Shown: positions 31,075 to 50,006 of the stretch, piece by piece
Layout of the letters: every line of letters starts with the position of its first letter
Numbering within the stretch: position 1 is the stretch's first letter
Source of the DNA: an uncultured Pseudohongiella sp.
GTDB taxonomy: Bacteria > Pseudomonadota > Gammaproteobacteria > Pseudomonadales > Pseudohongiellaceae
Direction of reading: 5' to 3'
DNA length: 64,000 nucleotides
NCBI GenBank assembly: GCA_902597095.1
Contig: CACJWK010000004.1
Span: 62,001 to 126,000, forward strand
Notes under the pieces: generated by a model
The model's input: only the letters and a program-made list of their open reading frames with translations
Database searches by the model: none
What the model was told of the DNA's origin: nothing
Made by a program: the position numbers and the translations under genes

Positions 31075-31653
31075 TTAGTTTTTCCATGACAAAACTTTCA
31101 ACTTTTGTCCGGATTTGTATCTGTGATATGCCCTGAGGAAAGATTCGGGATCACGGTTAGGAGAGTAATTGTTCAGGAATAATACGACGCCTTTTTCTAG
31201 CGATAGACCTTTATGTGCATTTAACCAATTAGCAAATAGGACATATTCAGATGCACAGTCAGTTCTACTTTGTTTGTAAGCGAAACTCTTCCTCTTGCTA
31301 TAGGGTTCGCCGAAGAATGCTTCATCAAGGGAAATGTTTCCTCTTCCATTTAGGTAGTTCTTGAAGCATCGAGATATCGCGATCATCACTTCTGGTGGTG
31401 GGTAGTATCCAGCTTCAACGTTTCCCTGTAATTCTTCTATGGGGGTGTTGAATTTAAGATCCTTGTGCGATTTTGATTTTCTTGGAATGGCATCGAACGC
31501 CTTTGACAGATTACCGAAACCAATCTGCATACCCTGCTCGTTTTCCAGTTCGAGCCTTTCTGCAATAGCATTGCAAACTTTGTTGTTATTCCAAGAGCCT
31601 AATTTTTCAGCTAATTCATGTGCAGATTGAAATCGTTTCTTCTTTTGCGTCAT
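31075..31653 (-). CDS. Island protein of unknown function (192 aa)
   Basis: The start overlaps the integrase stop by four bases (ATGA). The N-terminal part (KRFQSAHELAEKLGSWNNNKVCNAIAERLE) is helical; the C-terminal part has YVLFANWLNAHKGLSLEKGVVLFLNNYSPNRDPESFLRAYHRYK. There is no catalytic motif I can name. The tight coupling suggests a role in integration, excision or its control (inference). Confidence 0.5.
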   Translation of the reverse strand: MTQKKKRFQSAHELAEKLGSWNNNKVCNAIAERLELENEQGMQIGFGNLSKAFDAIPRKSKSHKDLKFNTPIEELQGNVEAGYYPPPEVMIAISRCFKNYLNGRGNISLDEAFFGEPYSKRKSFAYKQSRTDCASEYVLFANWLNAHKGLSLEKGVVLFLNNYSPNRDPESFLRAYHRYKSGQKLKVLSWKN

Positions 31654-32846
31654 ATTGTACTCGGGTCGGGGAGGTTGCTGGCTATAAGTTCAGACCACCA
31701 ATTCATCATCGTGCGCCTTTCCTCTAAATATTCAGCCCTGTTATATGCGGCTCGAACCGAATTTCTGTCTTCATGCGCCAATGCTTTTTCGATGATTTGC
31801 GGGTTAAAGCCTTGTTCATTCAGGGCAGTACTTGCGATTGACCTTAGTCCATGGGCAACAAGCTTGCCGCCATAACCCATCCTCTTGATTGCCATGTTTG
31901 CAGATTGAGAATTCATTGGTCGATGCGGGTTCCTCTCAGAAATGAATATGTGCGTTCTATTTCCTGAAATTGGCAGAATGGAATTGATTAATTGCAATGC
32001 GCCTTCCGATAAAGGGATAGTGTGCGCTCTTCTTCTTTTCATGCGAGTTGCGGGGATTACCCAAAGCTTTTTTTCAAAATCTATCTCGCTCCATTCAGCA
32101 TTAGACGCCTCTGCCGGCCGAACAATGGTATGGAGTTGCCACAAGATAAGCTTACGTGTTGTTACTCTGAGGTTTGCTTTGTAGAGATCCCGTAAAAAGG
32201 AACTTAAATCCTCAGGGTTAATACTGGGTAAGTTGACTAAGCTAGGTGATTTGAATGCACTGCTAATACGAGTTAGGGGATTTATGTCTAAACGGCCGGT
32301 GTTTACGGCAAAGTCCATAATTTGATTAAGGCGTTGACACAATCTTCTAACTGTTTCTAATGCGCCGCGATTCGCGAGCGGTTGAATCGCTTCAATCGCA
32401 GAGACAGCTGTAATTTCTGAGACCGGTAGATCGCCCAGTGGGTCTATCAAATGTCTCGTGACAGAGTTTCTTATGTCTTCAGCGTAGTTATCAGAGACTT
32501 GGCTTTTCTTCACTTCATACCAGTCGTTAAAGACTTGCTCAAAAGCTGATGTGTCTCTGATTTCTTTGTGCGGGTTGCTCTTTGGATTTGCTCCCAGCGA
32601 GATTTTCGCACGGAATTCATCGCGCAAGGCTCTAGCGTTGACGAGCGAGATGGATGGATACACGCCTAGGCCAAGATTTGTCCTCTTGCCATCATGCGGT
32701 CTCTTGTAATTGTAGATCCAGGTTTTGCTTCCGCTGGGTTTGACTCGCAGGTGCAGGCCGTTTCCGTCAGGAAGGTTATATTCCTTGGGGGATGGTTTAG
32801 CGTTCCTGATTTTGGAATCAGTTAGTGGCTTAACTATTCTGGCCAT
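31650..32846 (-). CDS. Tyrosine integrase, P4/DUF4102 type
   Basis: 398 residues. The N-terminal DUF4102-type arm-binding domain (LPDGNGLHLRVKPSGSKTWIYNYKRP, then GLGVYPSISLVNARA) is followed by a core-binding region and a catalytic domain. Catalytic residues are visible: R243 in HTIVRPAEAS, H332 and R335 in HGLRSIAST, H358 in ALAHEDRN and Y368 in RAAYNRAEY. The set is intact, so the enzyme should be active. It begins 152 bases from the ssrA 3' end, the usual position for elements that insert in tmRNA genes. No second integrase exists in the window. Confidence 0.95.
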   Translation of the reverse strand: MARIVKPLTDSKIRNAKPSPKEYNLPDGNGLHLRVKPSGSKTWIYNYKRPHDGKRTNLGLGVYPSISLVNARALRDEFRAKISLGANPKSNPHKEIRDTSAFEQVFNDWYEVKKSQVSDNYAEDIRNSVTRHLIDPLGDLPVSEITAVSAIEAIQPLANRGALETVRRLCQRLNQIMDFAVNTGRLDINPLTRISSAFKSPSLVNLPSINPEDLSSFLRDLYKANLRVTTRKLILWQLHTIVRPAEASNAEWSEIDFEKKLWVIPATRMKRRRAHTIPLSEGALQLINSILPISGNRTHIFISERNPHRPMNSQSANMAIKRMGYGGKLVAHGLRSIASTALNEQGFNPQIIEKALAHEDRNSVRAAYNRAEYLEERRTMMNWWSELIASNLPDPSTI

Positions 32847-32847
32847 A

Positions 32848-32899
32848 GTAACACCGAGGAGGTGATTCAGTGTGTTGTTACTATGGATGTTACTAAACT
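32848..32899. repeat. Candidate integrase arm-type sites, integrase side
   Basis: GTAACAC (inverted GTGTTAC) and the direct TTGTTAC and ATGTTAC motifs lie in the 150 bases between integrase and ssrA. The last is followed by TAAAC as in the distal copy (AGTGTTACTAAAC). They are probable binding repeats. Confidence 0.4.
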
Positions 32900-32949
32900 A
32901 CTTGAATTTAGGCGAATACTTTAGAGTTTTATTGAACAAAGAATCCATT

Positions 32950-33021
32950 TAAGTGTATGAATTATAGGCTTTTATGGATCCTTGTTGAACAAATGTTTGG
33001 TGGAGGCGGGGGGACTTGAAC
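32950..33021. repeat. att copy at the intact ssrA 3' end
   Basis: About 72 bases are shared with 23357-23428. Bases 32998-33021 are the 3' end of tmRNA; the preceding ~48 bases belong to the island end. Confidence 0.85.
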
Positions 33022-33358
33022 CCCCGTCCGTCAGTTCGCGGCCTGTTGCTCTACATGCTTAGCGTCGTCTATTGAGTTAGCCCACGTCTACCCGACGGGC
33101 AGGGCGAGTAGGGCGAGTCTGGGAAAAATTTAGCGTTCAGGCCCCAGACGGCCCTCGCGCGATCCTGTTCTATATGACGATTGCAAAACACTGGTTTACA
33201 GGCATCCCGGCGGCAATCGCTAGCGGCTATATTAAGCTGCTAGAGCGTATCTATCGTCGTTGGCAACTATAAAGTTGCAGTAATTGATTAACGAGAGTTA
33301 CTACCCTCTCGACATGCACCCCAGGTGTTGATACCGGCGTCGAATCCGAATCGCCCCC
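32998..33358 (-). ncRNA. ssrA: tmRNA
   Basis: 361 nt, minus strand. The 5' end GGGGGCG pairs with CGCCTCC just before the encoded 3' ACCA, giving a seven-base acceptor stem with one G-U. The 5' part has the expected GATTCGGATTCGACG tRNA-like segment and the 3' part the GGTTCAAGTCC TPsiC arm. The internal tag frame is at 33232-33264. A TATACT element about 13 bases upstream of the mature 5' end is a likely -10. The gene lies near smpB, its partner. The 3' end is the integration site of both islands and is kept intact. Confidence 0.95.
33232..33264 (-). other. tmRNA proteolysis-tag reading frame
   Basis: The resume codon GCC opens a ten-residue tag, ANDDRYALAA, followed by TAA. The AND start and YALAA end match the proteobacterial tags; the middle DDR replaces the DEN of E. 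coli. Confidence 0.92.
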
Positions 33359-37195: not shown

Positions 37196-37468
37196 ATGGG
37201 AAAGGAAAAAGAAAAAAGCTGGCTTGCCAAACTTGAAGAGGGGCTACACGCCTATTACGTGACACCCTACCGGCGCTCATTCGCCCGTGCCCAGCGTGAC
37301 GAGGACGACCTGTTCATGCTTCTAGTTTTTGCGGAAAGTATGGGTATTCCAAATCCTGCGGCTTTTTACACGATGGAATTGTTGCCGATTGTGTACGACC
37401 GCTTTCACGAGTGGCACATCCGAATGGGTATGGAACGCTCTCCTATGGATCACATTAGTTGCTGTTAG
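37196..37468 (+). CDS. Cory-CC-star protein
   Basis: 90 residues ending in MDHISCC. The aromatic N-terminal segment GLHAYYVTPYRRSFARAQRDEDDLFMLLVFAESMGIPNPAAFYTMELLPIVYDRFHEWHIRMGMERSPMD and the terminal Cys pair are what NCBI calls cory-CC-star proteins. They are encoded beside an ArsA/TRC40-like ATPase, as here, with 10 bases of overlap. The C-terminal CC suggests lipid modification or metal binding; function unknown. Confidence 0.88.
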   Translation: MGKEKEKSWLAKLEEGLHAYYVTPYRRSFARAQRDEDDLFMLLVFAESMGIPNPAAFYTMELLPIVYDRFHEWHIRMGMERSPMDHISCC

Positions 37469-38448
37469 ATCTCGCCAGTTCGCACAAGGTATTGTTCTTC
37501 GGCGGCAAGGGCGGTGTCGGCAAGACGACCGTGTCAGCAGCGACGGCGTTGGCGACGGCCAATGCCGGCGGCAAGGTCCTGCTGGTTTCAACTGACCCTG
37601 CGCATAATCTTGGGCACCTGTTTGCCCGTCCAGTCGGGCCCAGCCCGGTCCGTATCACGGCGGGGCTGGAAGCAATCGAGCTGGACCCGAATGAGTCGGT
37701 TGAAACCCACATCAAGGAGGTCAGCCAAGCTCTGCATCAGCTGATGCCTGTTACCCAGCACGGAGAAATTGACAAACATATGGCACTGTCTCGCGATGCG
37801 CCGGGGATGCATGAAGCTGCCTTGCTGGAGCGCATCGCCGATATCGTGCAGGATGGGATCGGAAGCTATGATCTCATCGTGTTCGATACGGCACCTTCTG
37901 GCCATACCGCGAGACTGATGGTGCTGCCGGAGATGATGTCCGCATGGACCGAGGGGTTGATCAAGCGTCGCGAAAAAGCCGATCGCTTTGCTGAGGTGGT
38001 CAGAGATCTCGGCAGGGACTCCAGCATGCAGGATAAAACCGTCGGCGGAGCAAACCTGGCAGAGCAAGAAAAAGAAAGCCGTATCCGTCAGATTCTTCTG
38101 CGGCGTCGGCATAAATTTGGGCACTTGCGAGACACCCTGTCTGATAAAGATCTCACCAGCTTTGTCATTGTGCTGGCGGCTGAGCGTCTGCCGGTGCTTG
38201 AAACCATTGAACTGCATCAACAGCTGTGCCGGATAGGCGTCACGGTTGGCGGCCTGGTGGTAAACAAACGCTCCCCGGAGCAGCAGGGTGAATTTCTTGC
38301 AGCGAGGCGTGCGCAGGAGAATAAACATCTTAAGACACTAGACGAATCGCTGGGGGTGGTTCCACGGCAAGAATTGGCGCTGGCCGGTCAGGACGTCGTC
38401 GGGCTGCCCGCGCTTGAGGTTTTTTCTGCAGCACTGGCAAAGGCCTGA
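37459..38448 (+). CDS. ArsA/Get3 (TRC40)-family ATPase
   Basis: 329 residues from a TTG start inside the end of the cory-CC-star gene. A deviant Walker A, FFGGKGGVGKTTVSAATALA, switch motifs STDPAHNLGHLF and VFDTAPSGHTARLM, and a C-terminal VVPRQE segment identify the family. The Cys residues of arsenite pump ATPases are not apparent and no ArsB is present, so an arsenite pump is unlikely. A chaperone-like client-handling ATPase working with the cory-CC-star protein is inferred. Confidence 0.87.
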   Translation: MLLDLASSHKVLFFGGKGGVGKTTVSAATALATANAGGKVLLVSTDPAHNLGHLFARPVGPSPVRITAGLEAIELDPNESVETHIKEVSQALHQLMPVTQHGEIDKHMALSRDAPGMHEAALLERIADIVQDGIGSYDLIVFDTAPSGHTARLMVLPEMMSAWTEGLIKRREKADRFAEVVRDLGRDSSMQDKTVGGANLAEQEKESRIRQILLRRRHKFGHLRDTLSDKDLTSFVIVLAAERLPVLETIELHQQLCRIGVTVGGLVVNKRSPEQQGEFLAARRAQENKHLKTLDESLGVVPRQELALAGQDVVGLPALEVFSAALAKA

Positions 38449-38737: not shown

Positions 38738-40699
38738 TTATAGCCTGACCTTTATGCCGCCATTGATAATAAACCCATCCAAGGGCGCAAAAATATCTGA
38801 GAAAATGGGGTTTAATTCTGAGCCCTTATAAATGGCGCCGAAGCGTGTTTGACGGGTATCTGACAAATTCTCGAAGTTCAGAAATATTGATAAACCATCT
38901 CTGATTATTTTTTCGGTCATCAGTCCAAAAATCCAGTAATCTCTTGCTGCGCTGCCATCAGCCAACCTTTGCCTGCTGTAGTAGTACGCCTCAAGCCCAA
39001 CTCTTAAATCGTCTTCTCGCTCATAGACAAAGACATTATTAACACGATCTTTTGGCATCAAAGGGACCATTTTGATTTCACCTGCAGTGTGAGTTTCCAC
39101 ATTGGCATGTGTATAACCAAAAAAATACTTGAAATCATTCCATCTCCAAATGGCGCTTAACTCGACACCTTTGGTATCCAGGAAGTCATCTGGTTGCTGG
39201 TAAGCGTATTGTGAATCGCCCAAGTCTAGCAGCTGCAAAGGGTTGTCCACCCGAGTATAGAAGAACAAGAGATTAAGGCTAAGCGTAGCGTTATCAGCCA
39301 GATCGAAACCATGACTAAGGTCTATGTTTAGACCGAAAGATTCTTCAGCGACTAATTCTCCTGTCTCAAAAGGCGATATGCCTCGATACTGGATAGCCTC
39401 GGCCTCCTCGCCAAATGGGTTCGGCTCCTTGTACCCCAGGCCCCCTCCGACTCGCAAAGATGTTTTTTCACTTGGTGAATATAACAGTGAAGCACGTGGT
39501 AATACAAAATTCCCAAGCTCGGAGGATGAGTCAACGCGTAGGCCACTTTCAATGTGCCAGTGTTCACCGAAAAAAAATGTCCCTTGAGCAAAAACACCCG
39601 CGGTTTGAGAATTAAAATCTAATGCAAGAGGTGCTGCTATTGATTTTTGTTCAAAGTTTTCTGTCCACAAGTTAACGCCAACTACCCAATCGAGTCTAGG
39701 AGCGGCTCCCACGATGTGTGCTTCTGAAAAACTTGAAATTTGTTCCCCACTAAAAGAGTAGTCCATCATATTTATGGCTTGTTGATAGGAGTTAATACTG
39801 TTTCGGAACACAAACTCTTTGCCAGAGTCTAGCTGAGAGATGTACTCGGTTTGTGTTGACAATCTATCTGTCTCAATTTGCTCAAAATATGCGGGATGGC
39901 GCCGATGACCACGTATGTAATCCATGTCCCCACCAGTTCGGTCTTCCTTAACCGCATTAAATCCGAAGCTAAATTCCCTTTTCGAGCTTTCATAAAAAAT
40001 ATTCGGACTAAAGCTTAATCGTTCGAATTCCGGAATCGCACTGAATTGATTTTCAGCCGGATCGTATGCAGAGTTTTGATTGTAAGAGCCAAAAATCCTT
40101 GTTCCCCAATTACCCTGACGGGATGAATAATAGCCGCTTGCATCCGCTCCACCAGCAGAGGTCACGTTGAAAAGCATGGATTTCTCTTTCTGAGCCCCTG
40201 GTTTTTTTGTCACCAGATTAATTAATCCAGCAATCGCACCACCTCCATATAAGGTAGAGTTTGCACCCTTTATCACCTCTACCTGCTGTAAATCGAGCGG
40301 GGAAATTTGAAGCAAGCTCAATCCCGAAGAAAGACCTCCATACATAGGCATTCCATCGCGCAAAAGTTGCGTATATTTACCACTCAAACCCTGGATTCGG
40401 ACACTTGAATTAAAACTCGTCGCGGATGTTTGCTGAATATGAATGCCTGTAGTCTCATTTAAAAGCATGCGTATATCGCCTGGCTTCATATTAGCCTTTT
40501 CATTTAATTCTTCTTCATTCAGCACTTCAACAAGAGTGGGTTGTTGCCCGAAACTGCGCCGGTTCCGAGTTGCGGTAACTATAATTTCTTCAAGCTCGAC
40601 TGACGCCTTCTCAGTTTCGGGCTCTGCGCTCAGAGTTGGAGCTTCTGCGACTATCGTTGTGTAAACCAGTAGAAAGGCAAGTTTTCGTACCATTGTCAT
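38738..40699 (-). CDS. TonB-dependent receptor near metal-handling genes
   Basis: 653 residues. A signal peptide (MVRKLAFLLVYTTIVAEAPTLSAEP; ATG at 40699 or 40693) is followed by a TonB box LEEIIVTATRNRRSFG, a plug with IHIQQTSATSFNSSVRIQGLSGKYTQLLRDGMPMYGGLSSGLSLLQISPLDLQQVEVIKGANSTLYGGGAIAGLINLVTKKPG, and a barrel ending IKVRL. An extracellular stretch with DYIRGHRRHPAYFE is His/Arg rich. It lies downstream of the ArsR/metallothionein-like pair on the same strand, 331 bases away. A metal or metallophore ligand is plausible but not shown. No Zur box was seen in its promoter region. Confidence 0.87.
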   Translation of the reverse strand: MTMVRKLAFLLVYTTIVAEAPTLSAEPETEKASVELEEIIVTATRNRRSFGQQPTLVEVLNEEELNEKANMKPGDIRMLLNETTGIHIQQTSATSFNSSVRIQGLSGKYTQLLRDGMPMYGGLSSGLSLLQISPLDLQQVEVIKGANSTLYGGGAIAGLINLVTKKPGAQKEKSMLFNVTSAGGADASGYYSSRQGNWGTRIFGSYNQNSAYDPAENQFSAIPEFERLSFSPNIFYESSKREFSFGFNAVKEDRTGGDMDYIRGHRRHPAYFEQIETDRLSTQTEYISQLDSGKEFVFRNSINSYQQAINMMDYSFSGEQISSFSEAHIVGAAPRLDWVVGVNLWTENFEQKSIAAPLALDFNSQTAGVFAQGTFFFGEHWHIESGLRVDSSSELGNFVLPRASLLYSPSEKTSLRVGGGLGYKEPNPFGEEAEAIQYRGISPFETGELVAEESFGLNIDLSHGFDLADNATLSLNLLFFYTRVDNPLQLLDLGDSQYAYQQPDDFLDTKGVELSAIWRWNDFKYFFGYTHANVETHTAGEIKMVPLMPKDRVNNVFVYEREDDLRVGLEAYYYSRQRLADGSAARDYWIFGLMTEKIIRDGLSIFLNFENLSDTRQTRFGAIYKGSELNPIFSDIFAPLDGFIINGGIKVRL

Positions 40700-41030
40700 C
40701 GATATGATCCAGAGCCACGCAACGGCGGTGTACTAATTTGAAAAGGCGACCCCTGATAAATACACAAATCTGGGTCACATGTAGTTATAGTGAGGGCAGC
40801 GAGTGGTTGATGAAATTCGCAGGAAAGCTTCGGACTAGTCGATTAATTGTCCGGACGAAGCGGACAGATAAGTTAAGTGCTCTCGCTCGAGCTAATCAAA
40901 ATGGAGAGCTTGTACAATTAGGACACTTGAAATAACTCAGGTGGAAGCGATCAGTCAAGGTTCGCTGCCTGGACTTTTCCCACAACACAACAGTGATCGT
41001 TGGTATTCCGTTTTATGATTGCCGCCTATA
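40700..41030. other. Intergenic stretch, no supported gene
   Basis: 331 bases between the TonB receptor and the Cys-rich peptide gene. A forward frame at 40738-40935 has no ribosome site or family features and is not called. No terminator is obvious, so readthrough from the regulator operon into the receptor is possible. Confidence 0.4.
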
Positions 41031-41168
41031 TCAACCGGGACTAGACCCAGCGCGGGGATCCCCCTGTTGGAGTTCCTCGCAGCAGCAGCTAGATCTGCAA
41101 CATTCACAAGATTTTTCCTCGCAGCAGGCTCCGTTGTTGCAATCGCATGCGCATTCTTTAGTTGTCAT
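41031..41168 (-). CDS. Metallothionein-like Cys-rich peptide (45 aa)
   Basis: An uncalled 45-residue frame. The ATG at 41168 overlaps the end of the ArsR-type gene by 11 bases and has GAGAGGAA about six bases upstream. Eleven Cys at positions 6, 8, 10, 15, 16, 21, 23, 24, 28, 29 and 30 form CxC, CC and CCC clusters, with no aromatic residue and no His. The tail from 31 to 45 is Cys-free. The composition and the SmtB-like partner are those of a metallothionein, although the sequence does not follow the SmtA pattern I know. Likely function: buffering of zinc, cadmium, copper or another soft metal in the cytoplasm, derepressed by metal through the upstream regulator. Confidence 0.72.
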   Translation of the reverse strand: MTTKECACDCNNGACCEEKSCECCRSSCCCEELQQGDPRAGSSPG

Positions 41169-41475
41169 GGTTTCCTCTCTCACAGTCGCGATTTTCAATT
41201 AGATCAGCTAACTCCCTAAGTTGAGCGGCAACCTCTTGGCGCCTCAATCGGTAAGTCTTCTCGCGACCAACTTTTTCAAACATCACTATGCCTCGTTCGG
41301 CAAGAGTTTTGAGATGCCGCGAAACAACTGACGCGTCGACGCTGCAGCAATCGCACAAACACATTGCGTTCTGCGACGACTCGCATTGACACAAACTGTA
41401 TACAAGCGAAAGACGATTGAACTCGCCTAGCGCCTTGAGAAAGTCTGCTGTTTTTTGAGTTTTTTCAGCGTTCAT
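41158..41475 (-). CDS. ArsR/SmtB-family metal-responsive repressor
   Basis: 105 residues from the ATG at 41475; the upstream frame to 41493 runs through the operator and is rejected. The winged helix includes SVDASVVSRHLKTLAERGIVMFEKVGREKTYRL. Cys are at 29, 31, 39, 41, 43 and 44 (CQCE and CLCDCC); the latter is at the place of the CVCDLC inducer site of ArsR in the recognition-helix region. A perfect inverted repeat begins three bases upstream of the ATG, so autorepression is likely. No ribosome site precedes the ATG, so the transcript may be leaderless. The gene is coupled to the Cys-rich peptide gene. Confidence 0.85.
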   Translation of the reverse strand: MNAEKTQKTADFLKALGEFNRLSLVYSLCQCESSQNAMCLCDCCSVDASVVSRHLKTLAERGIVMFEKVGREKTYRLRRQEVAAQLRELADLIENRDCERGNHDN

Positions 41476-41477
41476 AG

Positions 41478-41501
41478 TTGCATAATTGCACATTTATGCA
41501 A
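41478..41501. promoter_or_regulatory. ArsR/SmtB-type operator
   Basis: A perfect 8-base inverted repeat, TTGCATAA-N8-TTATGCAA, directly upstream of the regulator start. AT-rich imperfect 12-2-12-like dyads at this position are typical for the ArsR/SmtB family. Confidence 0.75.
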
Positions 41502-41825
41502 TTAATACAACAGAGGTCGGGGCCGAGCCGTTATCTAAGGGGCTTTTTAATGTGCCGCTACCAGCGTCTGCCCTTGTTGCCGTTTAAGCCGCTTGGAGAA
41601 GTCCATAGGCCGTCTCTTGTTTTTTGCGGTTAGCACGCCTTGCCTTCGCTTTGTATAACTTTTCTAAAAAATTGGTTGTCGCCTTAAGAATTGTCTCCGC
41701 GCCAAGCACCGACTGCTGAGAAACTTAGCTGCGTATCCGCAGATACACTTTGGCTCTAAAATCGGAGAACCAATAAATTAATTTGATGATTTAAATGCAC
41801 ACGCTGGTTGGCGTGTTGTCTCAGA
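41502..41825. other. Intergenic stretch upstream of the ZnuD-like receptor
   Basis: 324 bases. On the minus strand a short frame (about 41587-41708) would give a basic helical peptide of 40 residues from GTG, without ribosome site or recognised family. I see nothing firm here. Confidence 0.35.
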
Positions 41826-41844
41826 AATGTTATAATGTAACATT
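41826..41844. promoter_or_regulatory. Zur box upstream of the ZnuD-like receptor
   Basis: AATGTTA-N5-TAACATT, a perfect palindrome preceded by GA, fits the gammaproteobacterial Zur consensus (GAAATGTTATANTATAACATTTC). The same arms recur at 48443-48461. It lies 80 bases upstream of the receptor start. Confidence 0.75.
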
Positions 41845-41873
41845 ATGTAATTAGATAACATTGCAAGATAGAT

Positions 41874-41885
41874 ATGTTATAACAT
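41874..41885. promoter_or_regulatory. Second Zur-like palindrome
   Basis: ATGTTATAACAT, a spacer-less palindrome 40 bases upstream of the receptor start, may be a secondary site or overlap the -10 region. Confidence 0.4.
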
Positions 41886-41924
41886 CCCGGGTCCGTTATA
41901 GAGAGTGGCTCAGGGAGAAAATTT

Positions 41925-44234
41925 ATGAAAGTGCGTTATTCAAACCGACTGGCTGCTGCAATTGTGGTCGCTATCAACACTCCACAAATGTCAGTTGCGC
42001 AGTCCTCGTCGTCAGCCAATGGGCAACAAGCAATTGAGGAAATTATTGTGTCTGGTGCTTTCAGGACCGTGAAAGCAGAGACTCTTTTACCGATTTCGGT
42101 AATCTCCGGTGAGGAATACAGACAGAGAGTTACCAATTCGCTGGGCGACACACTCAAAAATGAAGTAGGTATAAACAGTGCGTCATATGGCACGGGCGTG
42201 GCCCAACCGATCATTCGAGGCCAGACAGGCAACCGTGTTGAAGTATTGCAGAACGGGATTGCGCTCACCGATGTTGCCAATCAGAGCCCGGACCACACAA
42301 ACTCCCTAGAGCCTCTGTTAGCCGATGGCTTAGAAATAGTTCGTGGTCCGTCTACCTTGCTATACGGAAGTGGCGCGATCGGAGGAGTGGTTAATGTTCT
42401 CGATAGTCGCATTCCCGAGCAGTTAGTCGATCAAACTAATTTTCAGTTAGAGCAGAACTACAACTCTGTGAACGAGGAAGACAAGACTGTATTTCGGCTG
42501 GACTCTTCGTTCGGTAATTTTGGAGTGCATTTAGATTACTTTTCTCGGGAAAATGAGAATGTCGAGATCGACGGTTTCGCAATCGATGAAGAGGCGGTAG
42601 AGGGTTTAGAGGCTCTCACCCATGCTTACATGGACGACGATGACCATGGCGACGACCATGATGATGATCACGACGACCATGATGACGACCACGACGACGA
42701 CCATGATGACGACCACGACGACGATCATGATGATCATGAGGAAATGGAGAATACCAACGGCTTTGTTGGGAATTCAAATGGTGAAGCTGAGGGCGGCGCA
42801 GCCGGATTTTCTTTTGTCGGTGACCAGGGCTTCTTTGGGTTTTCATACAGCACATACGAGAGCGACTATGGTCTGCCCCCTGGCACACACGGCCCGCATG
42901 GCGACGAGCATGGCGAAGAAGACGACGACCATGACGACGAGCATGACGACGACCATGACGATGACCACGACGACGATCATGATGCGCATGGCGGTCATGA
43001 AGAGGTGGAGTACGTCCGTTTGAAGCTGGATCAAGATCGCTATGATTTTAGGGGCGAGTACCGGTTCGTAAACTCGTGGGTGGAGAGCATCAGGGGGACT
43101 GTTGGTGTAACCGATTACCAACATGAAGAGGTAGAGTTTTTTGAAGATGGCGATTTCCATGTCGGAACGCTTTATTCCAACGAGGGATACAACTCTCGAT
43201 TTACCCTTAACAGAACGCCGACTGGAAATTGGTCGGGTGTGTATGGTGTACAAATACGGGATTCTGAATTCAGCGCGATCGGCGAAGAGGCCTTTATATC
43301 ACCTTCAGATATCAGGAATGTCGGTTGGTTTGGAGTGGAGCGCTATTCTGATGGTGACTTTACTGGTGAGTTGGGCTTCCGATTTGAATCGGCAGAGGTG
43401 GATCCTGGTCGATGTGGATACGATGATAGCGTTTATAGTTTGAGCGCTAGCGGCCTATACGGAGTAGGCGAGAATAGTAACTTCCTGGTGGGAGTTTCGA
43501 GATCTGAACGGGCGCCGTCAGTTGAGGAATTATTTGCAAACGTATCTTTAGACACGTGCAGTGCACCAGCTGACGATGAGATGCTAGTTTTGCACGCGGC
43601 CACTGGTTTTTACGAGATTGGCAATGCGAATCTCGAATCAGAGAAGTCGAACAATATCGAGATTGGTTGGCGCCATGATTCGGATTCACTCAGTGTTGAG
43701 GTCAACGGCTACTACAACAAGATTGACGACTACATCTTTCTCGACATTACCGGTGAGGAACATGAAGGGGCCGGCATCGCCCAGCATACTCAACAAGATG
43801 CAAAATTCCGAGGGCTCGAGGGTGAGCTGAACTACCGGTTTGGTATGAGTAATGGAGTAAACGGGGAGCTTTCCATATATGGAGACTTAGTGGACGCTGA
43901 GCTCAGTGTTGGAGGAAACTTGCCACGCATACCGGCCTCGAAGTTCGGGTCTTCATTAAGTCTAATCGGCGACAATTGGACTGGGCGAGTCCAAGTAACA
44001 CAAGTGAATGACCAGGACGACGTTAGTCGCCTTGAAATGAACACGGAAGGGTACACTCTTGTTACTGCCTACTTAGACTACGATTTCTCTGTGGGAGGTG
44101 ATTCTGCTCTAAAGGTCTTTTTGAGGGGCGATAACTTGTTGGATGACCGAATAAGGAATCATGCATCTTGGCTTAAGAATTATTCTCCTGAACCTGGTCG
44201 GGGGGTTACCCTTGGGTTAAGGTTCGAATATTAA
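41925..44234 (+). CDS. znuD: ZnuD-like zinc TonB-dependent receptor with His/Asp-rich loops
   Basis: 769 residues; GGGAG upstream of the ATG. Signal peptide, TonB box (AIEEIIVSG), and a plug with VGINSASYGTGVAQPIIRGQTGNRVEVLQNGIALTDVANQSPDHTNSLEPLLADGLEIVRGPSTLLYGSGAIGGVVNVLD, the ZnuD-type plug. Two extracellular insertions at about residues 236-273 and 325-360 consist mainly of Asp and His (DDDHDDDHDDDHDD), far longer than the His loops of neisserial ZnuD. Barrel end: RGVTLGLRFEY. The Zur box upstream and Zur gene downstream make zinc uptake the best supported role. Confidence 0.88.
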   Translation: MKVRYSNRLAAAIVVAINTPQMSVAQSSSSANGQQAIEEIIVSGAFRTVKAETLLPISVISGEEYRQRVTNSLGDTLKNEVGINSASYGTGVAQPIIRGQTGNRVEVLQNGIALTDVANQSPDHTNSLEPLLADGLEIVRGPSTLLYGSGAIGGVVNVLDSRIPEQLVDQTNFQLEQNYNSVNEEDKTVFRLDSSFGNFGVHLDYFSRENENVEIDGFAIDEEAVEGLEALTHAYMDDDDHGDDHDDDHDDHDDDHDDDHDDDHDDDHDDHEEMENTNGFVGNSNGEAEGGAAGFSFVGDQGFFGFSYSTYESDYGLPPGTHGPHGDEHGEEDDDHDDEHDDDHDDDHDDDHDAHGGHEEVEYVRLKLDQDRYDFRGEYRFVNSWVESIRGTVGVTDYQHEEVEFFEDGDFHVGTLYSNEGYNSRFTLNRTPTGNWSGVYGVQIRDSEFSAIGEEAFISPSDIRNVGWFGVERYSDGDFTGELGFRFESAEVDPGRCGYDDSVYSLSASGLYGVGENSNFLVGVSRSERAPSVEELFANVSLDTCSAPADDEMLVLHAATGFYEIGNANLESEKSNNIEIGWRHDSDSLSVEVNGYYNKIDDYIFLDITGEEHEGAGIAQHTQQDAKFRGLEGELNYRFGMSNGVNGELSIYGDLVDAELSVGGNLPRIPASKFGSSLSLIGDNWTGRVQVTQVNDQDDVSRLEMNTEGYTLVTAYLDYDFSVGGDSALKVFLRGDNLLDDRIRNHASWLKNYSPEPGRGVTLGLRFEY
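42632..42744 (+). repeat. Asp/His codon repeat 1 in receptor
   Basis: Tandem GAC/GAT-GAC-CAT units encode alternating DD and H over about 37 codons. It is low-complexity, with potential for copy-number change by slippage in multiples of three. Confidence 0.9.
42897..43005 (+). repeat. Asp/His codon repeat 2 in receptor
   Basis: A second block of the same unit type, about 36 codons, with more Glu and Gly at its edges. It is separated from the first by a 50-residue ordinary barrel segment. Confidence 0.9.
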
Positions 44235-45261: not shown

Positions 45262-45455
45262 GTTGCAGTGGTCTTTGAGCCGCCTCGGTAATTTTGCACC
45301 ATTGATTCACTAGGTCATCTTCAGGGTCTGCTCTACCCCGAAAGCCGCCAAACCGTGGCGCTCGCTTTCCATACATTCCCGCACAAATGCAAGTGCTGCG
45401 ACAGTTGGTCGGACGTATAGATACGTTGCAAGAACTTTCGCCGTGCGCGATGATA

Positions 45456-45468
45456 GTTATAATATAAC
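45456..45468. promoter_or_regulatory. Zur box upstream of zur
   Basis: GTTATA-A-TATAAC, a perfect palindrome matching the core of the Zur consensus, 94 bases before the zur start. It implies autoregulation. Confidence 0.7.
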
Positions 45469-45561
45469 ACTTCAACTGTGTGCGAGCCCGTTGAGTGTCT
45501 ACCAGATCTTGTCAGCGGTATCCCGAGTGGGCTCGATGGAAGGTAAATCGACGAGAATATC

Positions 45562-46059
45562 ATGAGCAAAACGAGTCAACCTAAGCGGAAAACTGAGCGA
45601 AGTTTGAAGCACAATCACGGTGCGTGTATAGAGACAGCGTTGTCGCGCGCGGAGCAACGCTGCGCGGAAGAGGGGGAGCGGTTTACGGGCTTGCGCAGGC
45701 AGGTGCTTGAACTTGTTTGGGCAGAGCACAAGCCGGCGAAGGCGTATGATTTACTGAAAAAGCTATCGGATATACGCAGCGGAGTTGCGCCGACTACTGT
45801 TTATCGTACGCTTGACTTTTTGCAAGAGCGGGGCCTTGTTCACAAGATTGAATCCCTAAACGCCTACGTGGGGTGCAGTCAACCAAACGCAGAACACAGC
45901 GGTCACTTCCTTATCTGCGAAGCCTGCTCCGAAATCAAAGAAATAGAGAATTCGAAAATCAGCGCATGGCTGGAGAGTGCCGCGCAGGATGAGGAATTCA
46001 AAATCAAAACTGAAACTGTCGAGCTATCTGGCTTGTGTATCCGCTGCCAACCTTCATAA
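45562..46059 (+). CDS. zur: Zinc uptake regulator Zur (Fur family)
   Basis: 165 residues. Winged helix with FTGLRRQVLELVWAEHKPAKAYDLLKKLSD and VAPTTVYRTLDFLQERGLVHKIESLNAYVGC, closely following Zur rather than Fur. Structural zinc Cys pairs are C119/C122 (CEAC) and C159/C162 (CIRC); C105 and the HSGH His supply regulatory-site ligands. A basic 20-residue N-terminal extension contains HNHG. It is surrounded by Zur-type palindromes and zinc-related genes, so it is the probable regulator of the cluster. Confidence 0.9.
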   Translation: MSKTSQPKRKTERSLKHNHGACIETALSRAEQRCAEEGERFTGLRRQVLELVWAEHKPAKAYDLLKKLSDIRSGVAPTTVYRTLDFLQERGLVHKIESLNAYVGCSQPNAEHSGHFLICEACSEIKEIENSKISAWLESAAQDEEFKIKTETVELSGLCIRCQPS

Positions 46060-47329: not shown

Positions 47330-47770
47330 ATGGGTAGAAAGATGGACGCTTCGGACAGATATTTTTTCAAGGAGCTGGAAAGTTCTGAACCGGGTGATCA
47401 GGTCCCATTCAAAGAATTAGTTGAACGGCTCACATTTAATGATGCGGGACTGATTCCAGTCATTGCTCAGGATGCTGAAACCGGAAGGGTGCTTATGCTC
47501 GCGTGGATGAATCGAGTCGCTCTGGAGCAAACAATCAGTACCCGTTTAATGACCTACTGGTCACGCAGTAGGCAAAAACTATGGCTCAAAGGAGAAACGA
47601 GCGGTCACTACCAATTAGTCCAGTCGATCAGCTTCGATTGTGATGGGGACGCTGTATTGTGTAAGGTCCGACAAAAGGGAAGTGCGTGTCATACTGGGCG
47701 CAAGGATTGCTTCTATCTCGATCTTGATATGGATGGAGAGGCAGTGACTATAACTTCCAAAAGAGCATAA
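47330..47770 (+). CDS. HisI-like phosphoribosyl-AMP cyclohydrolase paralogue
   Basis: 146 residues from 47330 (an ATG at 47342 is also possible). The catalytic block is intact: D103, D105 and D107 in [11 protein letters not shown] bind magnesium, and C104, C120 and C127 (ACHTGRKDC) are the zinc ligands. No HisE domain and no his genes are adjacent. Duplicated hisI genes are known members of Zur regulons, thought to back up the zinc enzyme under starvation, which fits this position. A GAAATTTAACATTTC half-palindrome lies about 25 bases upstream. Confidence 0.82.
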
Positions 47771-48387: not shown

Positions 48388-48442
48388 CCATTGTGTTGCT
48401 ATGGCGTTAGCAGTGGACTTAGCTTAAAATATCCATGTCTGT

Positions 48443-48461
48443 AATGTTATATAGTAACATT
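48443..48461. promoter_or_regulatory. Zur box between zinc-chaperone-like and MerC-like genes
   Basis: AATGTTA-N5-TAACATT, with the same arms and spacing as at 41826-41844, in the divergent promoter region. Confidence 0.75.
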
Positions 48462-48557
48462 TTAAAATACAACCATAACTCACGCAGTGTTGCCAATCGA
48501 TGGGCGTTTGAGCGAAATTGGGCACATCCCGCTTCACTTGGTTTTGGGCAAAAGCGA

Positions 48558-48965
48558 ATGAAAAACTCACAACCAGCAATGGATAAAGCAGCGATAGGCC
48601 TTTCTATGGTGTGCCTTGCACATTGCTTGCTTTCTCTAATGCCATTACTGATCTTGCCATCGCTAGGTGCAGCATTCCTTGAGGATGAGAGGTTTCACTA
48701 CGGAATCCTATTTTTGGTCTTGCCTACAAGTCTGCTGGCGCTTGTAATGGGTTTCCGCAAGCATGGCCAGTATTCCGTTCCGATTATTGGAGTTAGTGGC
48801 CTTTGCGTACTATTGCTAGTCGCGCTACTTGGTGAGGAAGCCACAGGCGACATCGGTGAGATCGCGATAACCGTCGCGGGAAGCCTGATTGTTGCCTACG
48901 CTCACGCTCGCAATCTTGTGCTGGGTCACAGCGGAGATTTGAGGCCTATTGCTGGTTCAGATTGA
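48558..48965 (+). CDS. MerC-domain membrane protein
   Basis: 135 residues from the ATG at 48558. Starts further upstream would place the Zur box inside the gene. Four helices; the first contains the MerC signature pair in SMVCLAHCLLSLMPLLILPSLGA (Cys-x-x-x-Cys with His). No merA, merT, merP or merR is near. MerC-like proteins also occur in Zur-controlled operons with COG0523 GTPases, as here (the next gene starts three bases after the stop). Metal ion transport or binding at the inner membrane is inferred. Confidence 0.75.
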   Translation: MKNSQPAMDKAAIGLSMVCLAHCLLSLMPLLILPSLGAAFLEDERFHYGILFLVLPTSLLALVMGFRKHGQYSVPIIGVSGLCVLLLVALLGEEATGDIGEIAITVAGSLIVAYAHARNLVLGHSGDLRPIAGSD

Positions 48966-48968
48966 GTG

Positions 48969-50006
48969 ATGGCGAATACTAAAGGCAAGGACTCAGTCAC
49001 TCAGATTCCAACCAACATTATTACAGGTTTTCTTGGAGTCGGGAAAACCACGGCGATTCAAAAGTTGTTGTCTCAAAAACCAGTAGCGGAGCGGTGGGCT
49101 GTATTGGTTAACGAGTTTGGTGAAGTTGGCATTGATTCGAATTTATTCTCCAGCGCGAACGGACACAAGAGTGGCGTGACAATTCGTCAGGTTCCCGGTG
49201 GCTGTATGTGCTGTACTAATGGCTTGCCGATGCAGATGGCATTAAACCTTTTGCTTCAGGAGTCTAAACCACACCGCCTTTTGATCGAACCGACAGGGCT
49301 TGGCCACCCGAAGGAAGTGCTCACTATCCTGTCCGGTGAATACTATCGCGAAGTGCTGAACCTCCAAGCTACACTCTCCCTAGTGGATGCCAGAAAGATC
49401 AACGATCCTAGATATACGTCTAACGATACCTTTAATCAGCAAATTGAAATAGCTGAAGTTGTCATCGCAAATAAAGCTGATCTATATCATTCCGATGATT
49501 TTCCTCTACTTGTCGGGTATGTAGATGAAAACTTCGGCCTTGATCAAAAACAAATTTATCAGGTCAGACATGGCGCAGTAGAGCTGGAATGGCTTGCGCG
49601 ACCCGCGAGTGAAAAGAACCAAAATGCATATTGCAAAGTTGCAACAGTTAACAATTCGTCCGTTTTGCCACCGACTCTTGATACACCGAGAGAAGGGTTT
49701 GTAAGTGCAGATAATGCTGGAGAAGGCTTCTTTAGTCGCGGCTGGATATTCAACCCCGGCTGGCAATTCGATCCAGTGAAGCTTCTATCACTTTTTCAGG
49801 GGTTAGATGTTGAACGATTGAAAGGTGTGTTTATCACATCTGAGGGTTTTATTGGATTTAATAAAGTCGATGACGTGGTTACGCAGCTCCGGTTTAATTT
49901 TATGCCGGACAGCCGTGTCGAGGTCATTAGCAGGCGACCCGAAATAATTGCAGGTTTAGAAAAACTATTGCTCGATTGTCGGATTGGTAGCAAGGAGCCG
50001 AGCTAG
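48969..50006 (+). CDS. COG0523 (CobW/P47K-like) metal-chaperone GTPase
   Basis: 345 residues from the ATG at 48969. P-loop GFLGVGKTT, the metal-binding GGCMCC (about residues 77-82, the CxCC motif of the family), IEPTGLGHP, and NKAD for guanine. The C-terminal domain contains the CobW_C-like [15 protein letters not shown]. Zur-linked COG0523 proteins pass zinc to client enzymes during starvation. Cotranscribed with the MerC-like gene; its end overlaps convergent bamE by four bases. Confidence 0.9.

Follow-up and report, generated by a model that had tools for sequence, protein, structure and literature searches.

A putative histidine-free metallothionein-type peptide encoded next to a six-cysteine ArsR-family repressor in marine Gammaproteobacteria

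In a 64,000-nucleotide stretch of DNA from an uncultured Pseudohongiella species (contig C4:62001-126000, from a genome of 2.4 Mb that is 77% complete; hereafter the window), an arsR-family gene for a repressor with six clustered cysteines is directly followed by a short gene for a cysteine-rich, metallothionein-like peptide. Judged by the family of the regulator and the anatomy of the two genes, from which repression, its relief by metal and chelation would follow, the pair probably constitutes an autoregulated, metal-induced operon for a metallothionein-type peptide, whatever the metal, and we put the probability of this reading at roughly 0.78. Given such an operon, the odds that zinc, or zinc together with cadmium, is the metal concerned are about even; it is favoured by the zinc-starvation genes that repeatedly neighbour the pair, though only in the smaller part of the loci.

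Related loci were collected by one scan of genome contigs with short peptide patterns taken from the window's ArsR protein, a procedure that favours close kin. It gave 15 loci (L004-L018), which together with the window and a locus from genome G417 form the set of 17 discussed here; alignment counts out of 16 refer to the window and L004-L018. In all 17 loci (15/15 from the scan, the window and G417), the gene following arsR encodes the cysteine-rich peptide, so that homologues with conserved cysteine spacing indeed always stand beside this regulator, the third cysteine being kept in 16 of the 17.

The peptide gene (41031-41168, minus strand) comprises 45 codons including 11 for cysteine, is preceded by the Shine-Dalgarno-like sequence GAGAGGA and shares 11 bases (41158-41168) with the arsR gene on the same strand, in complete agreement with the original prediction of this frame, its good ribosome site and its overlap. 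Genes as short as this one can escape gene callers. The cysteines occupy positions 6, 8, 10, 15, 16, 21, 23, 24, 28, 29 and 30 and thus fall into the conserved part of the protein (residues 1-30; 41079-41168), where 11 of the 30 residues are cysteine; histidine does not occur in the peptide. The pattern CxCxCx4CCx4CxCCx3CCC is present in the window and in 14 of the 15 scan loci, L011 lacking the third cysteine, and the other ten cysteines are invariant. Peptides from the 16 relatives measure 29-34 residues and end directly after the CCC or one to two residues further on. Only the window copy has lost this stop, as judged from the 17 peptides and from the downstream DNA of seven close copies: the TAG of six close relatives reads GAG in the window, which adds the 15 residues EELQQGDPRAGSSPG up to the next stop (41031-41078, minus strand) and represents either a genuine change or an assembly error.

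Substitutions in the peptide frame fit a protein-coding gene. For the 25-residue core of seven close copies, the pooled ratio of nonsynonymous to synonymous substitution rates (dN/dS) is 0.151, and 0.31 in the columns without cysteine, distant from the value near 1 that the original prediction had named as speaking against it. Over 17 copies, 186 of 187 core cysteine positions encode cysteine, with both codons in use (TGT 78, TGC 108). A chance open reading frame is ruled out by the 17/17 loci together with a dN/dS of 0.15. Broad traits of metallothioneins, i.e., small size, richness in cysteine and the presence of CxC and CC motifs, are all apparent. On the other hand, none of 16 peptides matches a metallothionein model of Pfam (where we take PF02069 to be the prokaryotic metallothionein of the SmtA type) or NCBIfam at E ≤ 1; the sole match of any kind is to LSR (two members, E 0.26), the 17th peptide has no Pfam match at E ≤ 0.001, and the peptide profile finds no PDB chain at E ≤ 1. 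With regard to composition, 11 cysteines in about 30 residues are also found in the alpha domain of vertebrate metallothioneins, which binds four divalent ions; the count equals that of the peptide, the spacing differs. The protein thus looks, as had been proposed, like a member of a new metallothionein-type family, and it is under purifying selection, with metal binding predicted from the arrangement of its cysteines.

The arsR-family gene (41158-41475, minus strand) encodes a protein of 105 residues and is also under constraint (dN/dS 0.094, seven close copies). Cysteines 29, 31, 39, 41, 43 and 44, the cluster pointed out originally, are invariant in 16/16 sequences and in the 17th from G417; the window protein has a seventh cysteine at position 98 and none before position 29. 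It scores just below the cut-offs of PF01022 (21.9 bits, cut-off 22) and NF033788 (49.9 bits, cut-off 55). Profile A1, built from the 16 ArsR proteins, matches Lmo1102, CadC, CzrA and others in the PDB (E 1.2e-10 to 1.3e-7), Lmo1102 and CadC being the best. A structure model with a predicted local distance difference test (pLDDT) value of 73 retrieves SmtB, CzrA, CadC and ArsR in a fold search with a probability of about 1.00, at template modelling (TM) scores of only about 0.4-0.55. By these profile and model matches the repressor is assigned to the winged-helix ArsR/SmtB fold family. A closer likeness to SmtB, assumed at the outset, was not borne out for the sensor site: the SmtB alpha-5 zinc motif DxHx10HxxE occurs in 0/16 sequences, the aligned positions being R/K, variable, mostly D, and E, respectively. 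Since C39 and C41, present in 16/16 where the recognition-helix motif starts, fall on the CxC of CadC (ELCVCD), all six cysteines are invariant and the alpha-5 motif is absent, the predicted sensor site is of the alpha-3 (CadC/ArsR) type, from which bound metal would trigger release.

The original prediction had regarded a perfect repeat in front of arsR as the operator. This outer repeat, TTGCATAA-N8-TTATGCAA (41478-41501), exists and ends two rather than three bases ahead of the start codon, but its second arm, which adds a third TGCAA half-site, recurs in only 3/17 loci, by which the repeat is ruled out as the operator. Conservation resides instead in the inner dyad TTGCATAAATGTGCAA at 41486-41501, found once in the window (0.17 expected), the core of which, TTGC(A/G)-N6-(T/C)GCAA, precedes arsR in 17/17 loci with no further match in the 122,305 bases of these loci. 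It extends to about ATA-n-TTGCA-N6-TGCAA-n-TAT, with 11-17 of 17 rows agreeing at each base and TTA replacing the leading ATA in the window. We consider this 24-bp dyad (41482-41505, minus strand) the predicted operator, probably situated within the arsR promoter; it is near in size to the 12-2-12 repeats given for the family in the part of PMC8790569 drawn upon here. A TTGACA hexamer lies nine bases ahead of the core in L012, L015 and L020, and the operator likely lies between -35 and -10. In 13/17 loci a -10-like hexamer ends six to seven bases ahead of the arsR ATG; a leaderless arsR message, which this brings to mind, is a thought only. A terminator scan found none.

The pair is rare. Profile A1 gave eight matches at E ≤ 1e-12 in 390 genomes of the order, comprising the window genome, where the ArsR protein matches once, G417 at 4.6e-48 and a further six in the range of about 1e-17 to 1e-18. 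Beside the arsR genes of these six, the outgroup, no cysteine-rich peptide stands (0/6), and the loci retrieved, 364,816 bases with overlaps counted, hold no other ATG frame with 8 cysteines at a share of at least 22%. The peptide profile A2, which may miss members, on its own matched two of 369 genomes of the class, the same two as the ArsR profile (E ≤ 1e-20). Counting the window genome in each case, the pair occurs in 2 of 58 near relatives, where a third ArsR match is 41% identical and lacks the peptide, and in 1 of 398 genomes of a phylum sample, while the peptide profile is matched in 1 of 332 genomes (G000) of a second order sample, which may or may not include G417. Three groups stand out in the ArsR tree: the first unites seven rows, among them the window and two labelled Halieaceae, the second has four, with Alteromonas and Alteromonadaceae, and the third has three, where one Myxococcales stands with two unplaced proteobacterial metagenome-assembled genomes (MAGs). 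These groups and the patchy presence suggest horizontal transfer of the pair, with errors in MAG binning as an alternative; the taxon labels of L010 and L016-L018 in particular may reflect misbinning. Plasmids or phages as carriers were considered and rejected: the window protein (query P0002) lacks a match in plasmids and in viral contigs and retrieves one CadC (35% identity) from phages, and the Alteromonas copy retrieves three distant plasmid ArsR proteins at about 36% identity.

Next to the pair, a zinc-type gene cluster is encoded on the plus strand. A gene for a ZnuD-like TonB-dependent receptor (41925-44234; NF038289, E 1e-107, 361 bits, under the cut-off of 950) diverges from arsR at a distance of 0.45 kb and is preceded by two Zur-box-like sites (41825-41843, no mismatch; 41869-41887, two mismatches). 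Long, likely zinc-binding His/Asp-rich loops of this receptor are encoded at 42620-43030. Further on follow a Zur-like Fur-family regulator (45562-46059; 102 bits to Zur, cut-off 167) with a Zur-box-like site at 45452-45470, the phosphoribosyl-AMP cyclohydrolase HisI (47330-47770), a MerC-domain protein (48435-48965, start probably further in; Zur-box-like site 48442-48460) and a COG0523/CobW-type GTPase (48966-50006). With a sequence that we take to be the Zur consensus and up to three mismatches, the window gives 12 matches against 1.71 expected, the same sites being counted on both strands. None of the 12 falls in 41475-41525, and control of the arsR-peptide pair itself by Zur is ruled out by the lack of a site at its promoter. 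COG0523, HisI and DUF1826 genes occur in Zur gene clusters (PMC2770081), and in the part of that source at hand no link between MerC and such clusters was found. MerC-domain and COG0523 genes lie about 1 kb apart or less in 9 of the 17 genomes, mostly distant from the arsR-peptide pair; because of this adjacency MerC may serve zinc handling rather than mercury resistance in these genomes.

Flanking genes of the other loci were in part scanned with Pfam and otherwise assessed by eye. Four of the 17 loci (window, L010, L011, L018) have a COG0523 gene no more than 15 kb from the pair, against 0.143 expected (P 1.5e-5), and without the window three do so against 0.130 (P 3.3e-4), with the 15-kb limit set after the hits were seen (that of L011 is 14.4 kb off) and expectations resting on matches at E ≤ 1e-20 read by eye, visible contig spans and rounded genome sizes. 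A MerC gene is found within the same distance in 3/17 (window, L010, L018). An 18-kb locus of the L011 genome, L031, combines the pair with a ZigA GTPase, DUF1826, a permease, a ZnuD-like receptor and a Zur-like protein, each of the latter two under its own cut-off, and two Zur-like boxes. Besides L031, L030 also has a ZigA that scores above its cut-off, which is not reached by the COG0523 proteins encoded in the window and in L018. Upstream of the pair in L016, a HupE/UreJ-type and a DUF6702 protein are encoded. The zinc-uptake cluster adjoining the pair in the window is therefore real, and zinc-type genes recur beside it in three distant genomes, yet not in most; zinc is a plausible metal. 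It is about as likely as not that the pair is a two-gene cassette of an unnamed, His-free bacterial metallothionein family and a six-cysteine, alpha-3-only ArsR, whose patchy distribution, probably the result of horizontal transfer, takes in marine Gammaproteobacteria as well as, going by MAG labels, Bdellovibrionota and Myxococcota, and which in several lineages constitutes the excess-side counterpart of an adjoining Zur starvation regulon.

How the operon would work can be outlined from its sequence. Bound to the dyad ATAnTTGCA-N6-TGCAAnTAT within the promoter of arsR, an ArsR dimer would keep transcription off; a rise in a cytosolic thiophilic metal would lead to binding of this metal at the alpha-3 cysteine cluster (CxC x7 CxCxCC) and to release of the repressor, upon which a bicistronic arsR-peptide message would be made. 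The His-free peptide, 30 residues long in most relatives, would chelate the metal through its 11 cysteines in a thiolate cluster like that of a metallothionein, and with falling free metal repression would return. The best reading is that the operon serves homeostasis under an excess of zinc (or cadmium, Cu(I) or As(III)); if the metal is zinc, the window would pair import (Zur, ZnuD) with buffering, back to back.

Several observations weigh against this view. COG0523 is absent within 15 kb in 13 of the 17 loci, six of these on short contigs, and seven of the eleven contigs of at least 18 kb lack such a neighbour, the flanks L033-L039 holding other genes. The L031 permease scores above the ArsP_1 cut-off, its weak ZIP match lying under the cut-off. 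Thiolates in a CxCxCC arrangement fit Cu(I), cadmium, lead and As(III) no worse than zinc, the zinc motif of SmtB is missing, pLDDT in the repressor model drops below 50 at residues 35-40, i.e., in the cysteine cluster, and metal binding by the peptide is deduced from its composition. Between window and L004, the core differs by seven nonsynonymous and three synonymous changes with all 11 cysteines kept; in view of this ratio and the lost stop the window copy could be relaxed, and the L011 peptide is one cysteine short. Promoter evidence is uneven as well: outside the loci with TTGACA, the -35 fit is weaker (three of six bases in the window, one to three of six in L016-L018), the -10 fit is three to five of six in all loci, and a promoter scan named no minus-strand promoter at arsR.

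That the pair is an ArsR/CadC-like operon for detoxification of arsenite/antimonite or of cadmium/lead, with the peptide as chelator in place of a pump and the zinc genes as incidental neighbours, is suggested by the position of the conserved C39 and C41 on the CadC site, by Lmo1102 and CadC as best PDB profile matches, by an ArsA/GET3-type ATPase gene 2.6 kb away in the window and by the ArsP_1-family permease amid the zinc-type genes of L031; we nevertheless consider it unlikely, as neither ArsB nor ArsC nor a cadmium pump was recognised in the flanking gene lists, most genes of which were assessed by eye, and the window's ArsA gene has no relative in the flanks compared, with the L005 contig ending short of that place. 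A copper operon, in which ArsR would sense Cu(I) via CxCxCC and the peptide would be a copper thionein, is somewhat less probable still: BxmR senses Cu(I) through such a site, the bxmR/bmtA operon offers a precedent, and a His-free peptide rich in CC and CCC plus a six-cysteine sensor fit Cu(I) chemistry, but the recurring neighbours are of the zinc type and no copper gene was recognised among those scanned or read by eye. A thiol redox or persulfide switch, with ArsR as a cysteine redox sensor like BigR and SqrR, both of which are among the fold-search matches, and the peptide as thiol scavenger, appears very improbable, since the zinc linkage and the constant spacing of the cysteines in the two proteins indicate metals. 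Hardly credible is an untranslated frame conserved as a DNA or RNA element, since for all its shortness and a start that overlaps arsR in 10/16 loci, its cysteine codons vary synonymously with the residue kept, its dN/dS is low and it has its own ribosome site.

The arrangement proposed here, a metal-responsive repressor and a metallothionein-type peptide in one operon, has relatives among characterized systems. In smtA/smtB of Synechococcus, an ArsR/SmtB-family repressor, a small cysteine-rich chelator and an inverted repeat are likewise combined; there the genes are divergent, whereas here they form one operon with a His-free peptide and a sensor at alpha-3 in place of the alpha-5 motif. An SmtA-like Pseudomonas protein is described, in the portion of the literature consulted, with a Cys9His cluster, unlike the peptide studied here, which lacks both histidine and a Pfam metallothionein match. 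The originally emphasised difference from the divergent smtB/smtA order holds, but the one-operon order is not new, as the repressor gene bxmR of Oscillatoria brevis likewise shares an operon with the metallothionein gene bmtA (PMC8790569, in the part cited); distinctive of the present pair is a peptide family without Pfam or NCBIfam match. For AzuR/NmtA of Anabaena, the available extracts likewise give an SmtB-like metallothionein repressor in a zinc-uptake (znuABC) locus, there with a distant metallothionein gene, whereas here both genes stand together beside zinc-uptake genes. The alpha-3N sensors CadC and Lmo1102 are the closest solved relatives by profile and have the CxC at alpha-3 in common, to which the repressor described here adds four invariant cysteines while lacking the N-terminal cysteine pair. 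The usual target of CadC is a cadmium pump, which was not seen in the flanking gene lists.

Regulation of metallothioneins by ArsR-type repressors is thus already known, as far as the consulted parts of the sources on smtB/smtA, bxmR/bmtA and azuR/nmtA extend, and it is the peptide family that appears to be new: no family recognisable as this peptide was found in the open-access literature, although it may still be published, and the family is unnamed in both Pfam and NCBIfam. By 2020, only SmtA and MymT had been investigated for function among bacterial metallothioneins (PMC7387436, in the part seen). A short His-free family with 11 cysteines that comes with a dedicated sensor and a conserved operator offers a compact test of metal buffering in free-living marine bacteria, and the locus allows asking whether uptake via Zur and buffering are tuned together.

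Downstream of the pair and on the same strand, a second TonB-dependent receptor is encoded (38738-40699, minus strand), the substrate of which might be a metal chelate. It occupies the same place in L005 and L008, L006 and L007 differ, and the contigs of L004 and L009 end before this position; because only the window, L005 and L008 have it, it was rejected as a third operon gene and left out of the module. Between peptide and receptor, the window contains the stop-interrupted relic of a frame of about 97 residues (40711-40984, minus strand) that is open in L005 and L008, the L008 version having 96 residues with several cysteines and no Pfam match at 0.001. The ArsA/GET3-type ATPase gene is located at 37459-38448, with no ars operon recognised nearby. 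An integrase-like gene, identified by eye, beside the transfer-messenger RNA (tmRNA) gene (32998-33358; together 31650-33358) adjoins a low-G+C stretch at about 14-32 kb, an arrangement suggestive of an island integrated at ssrA.
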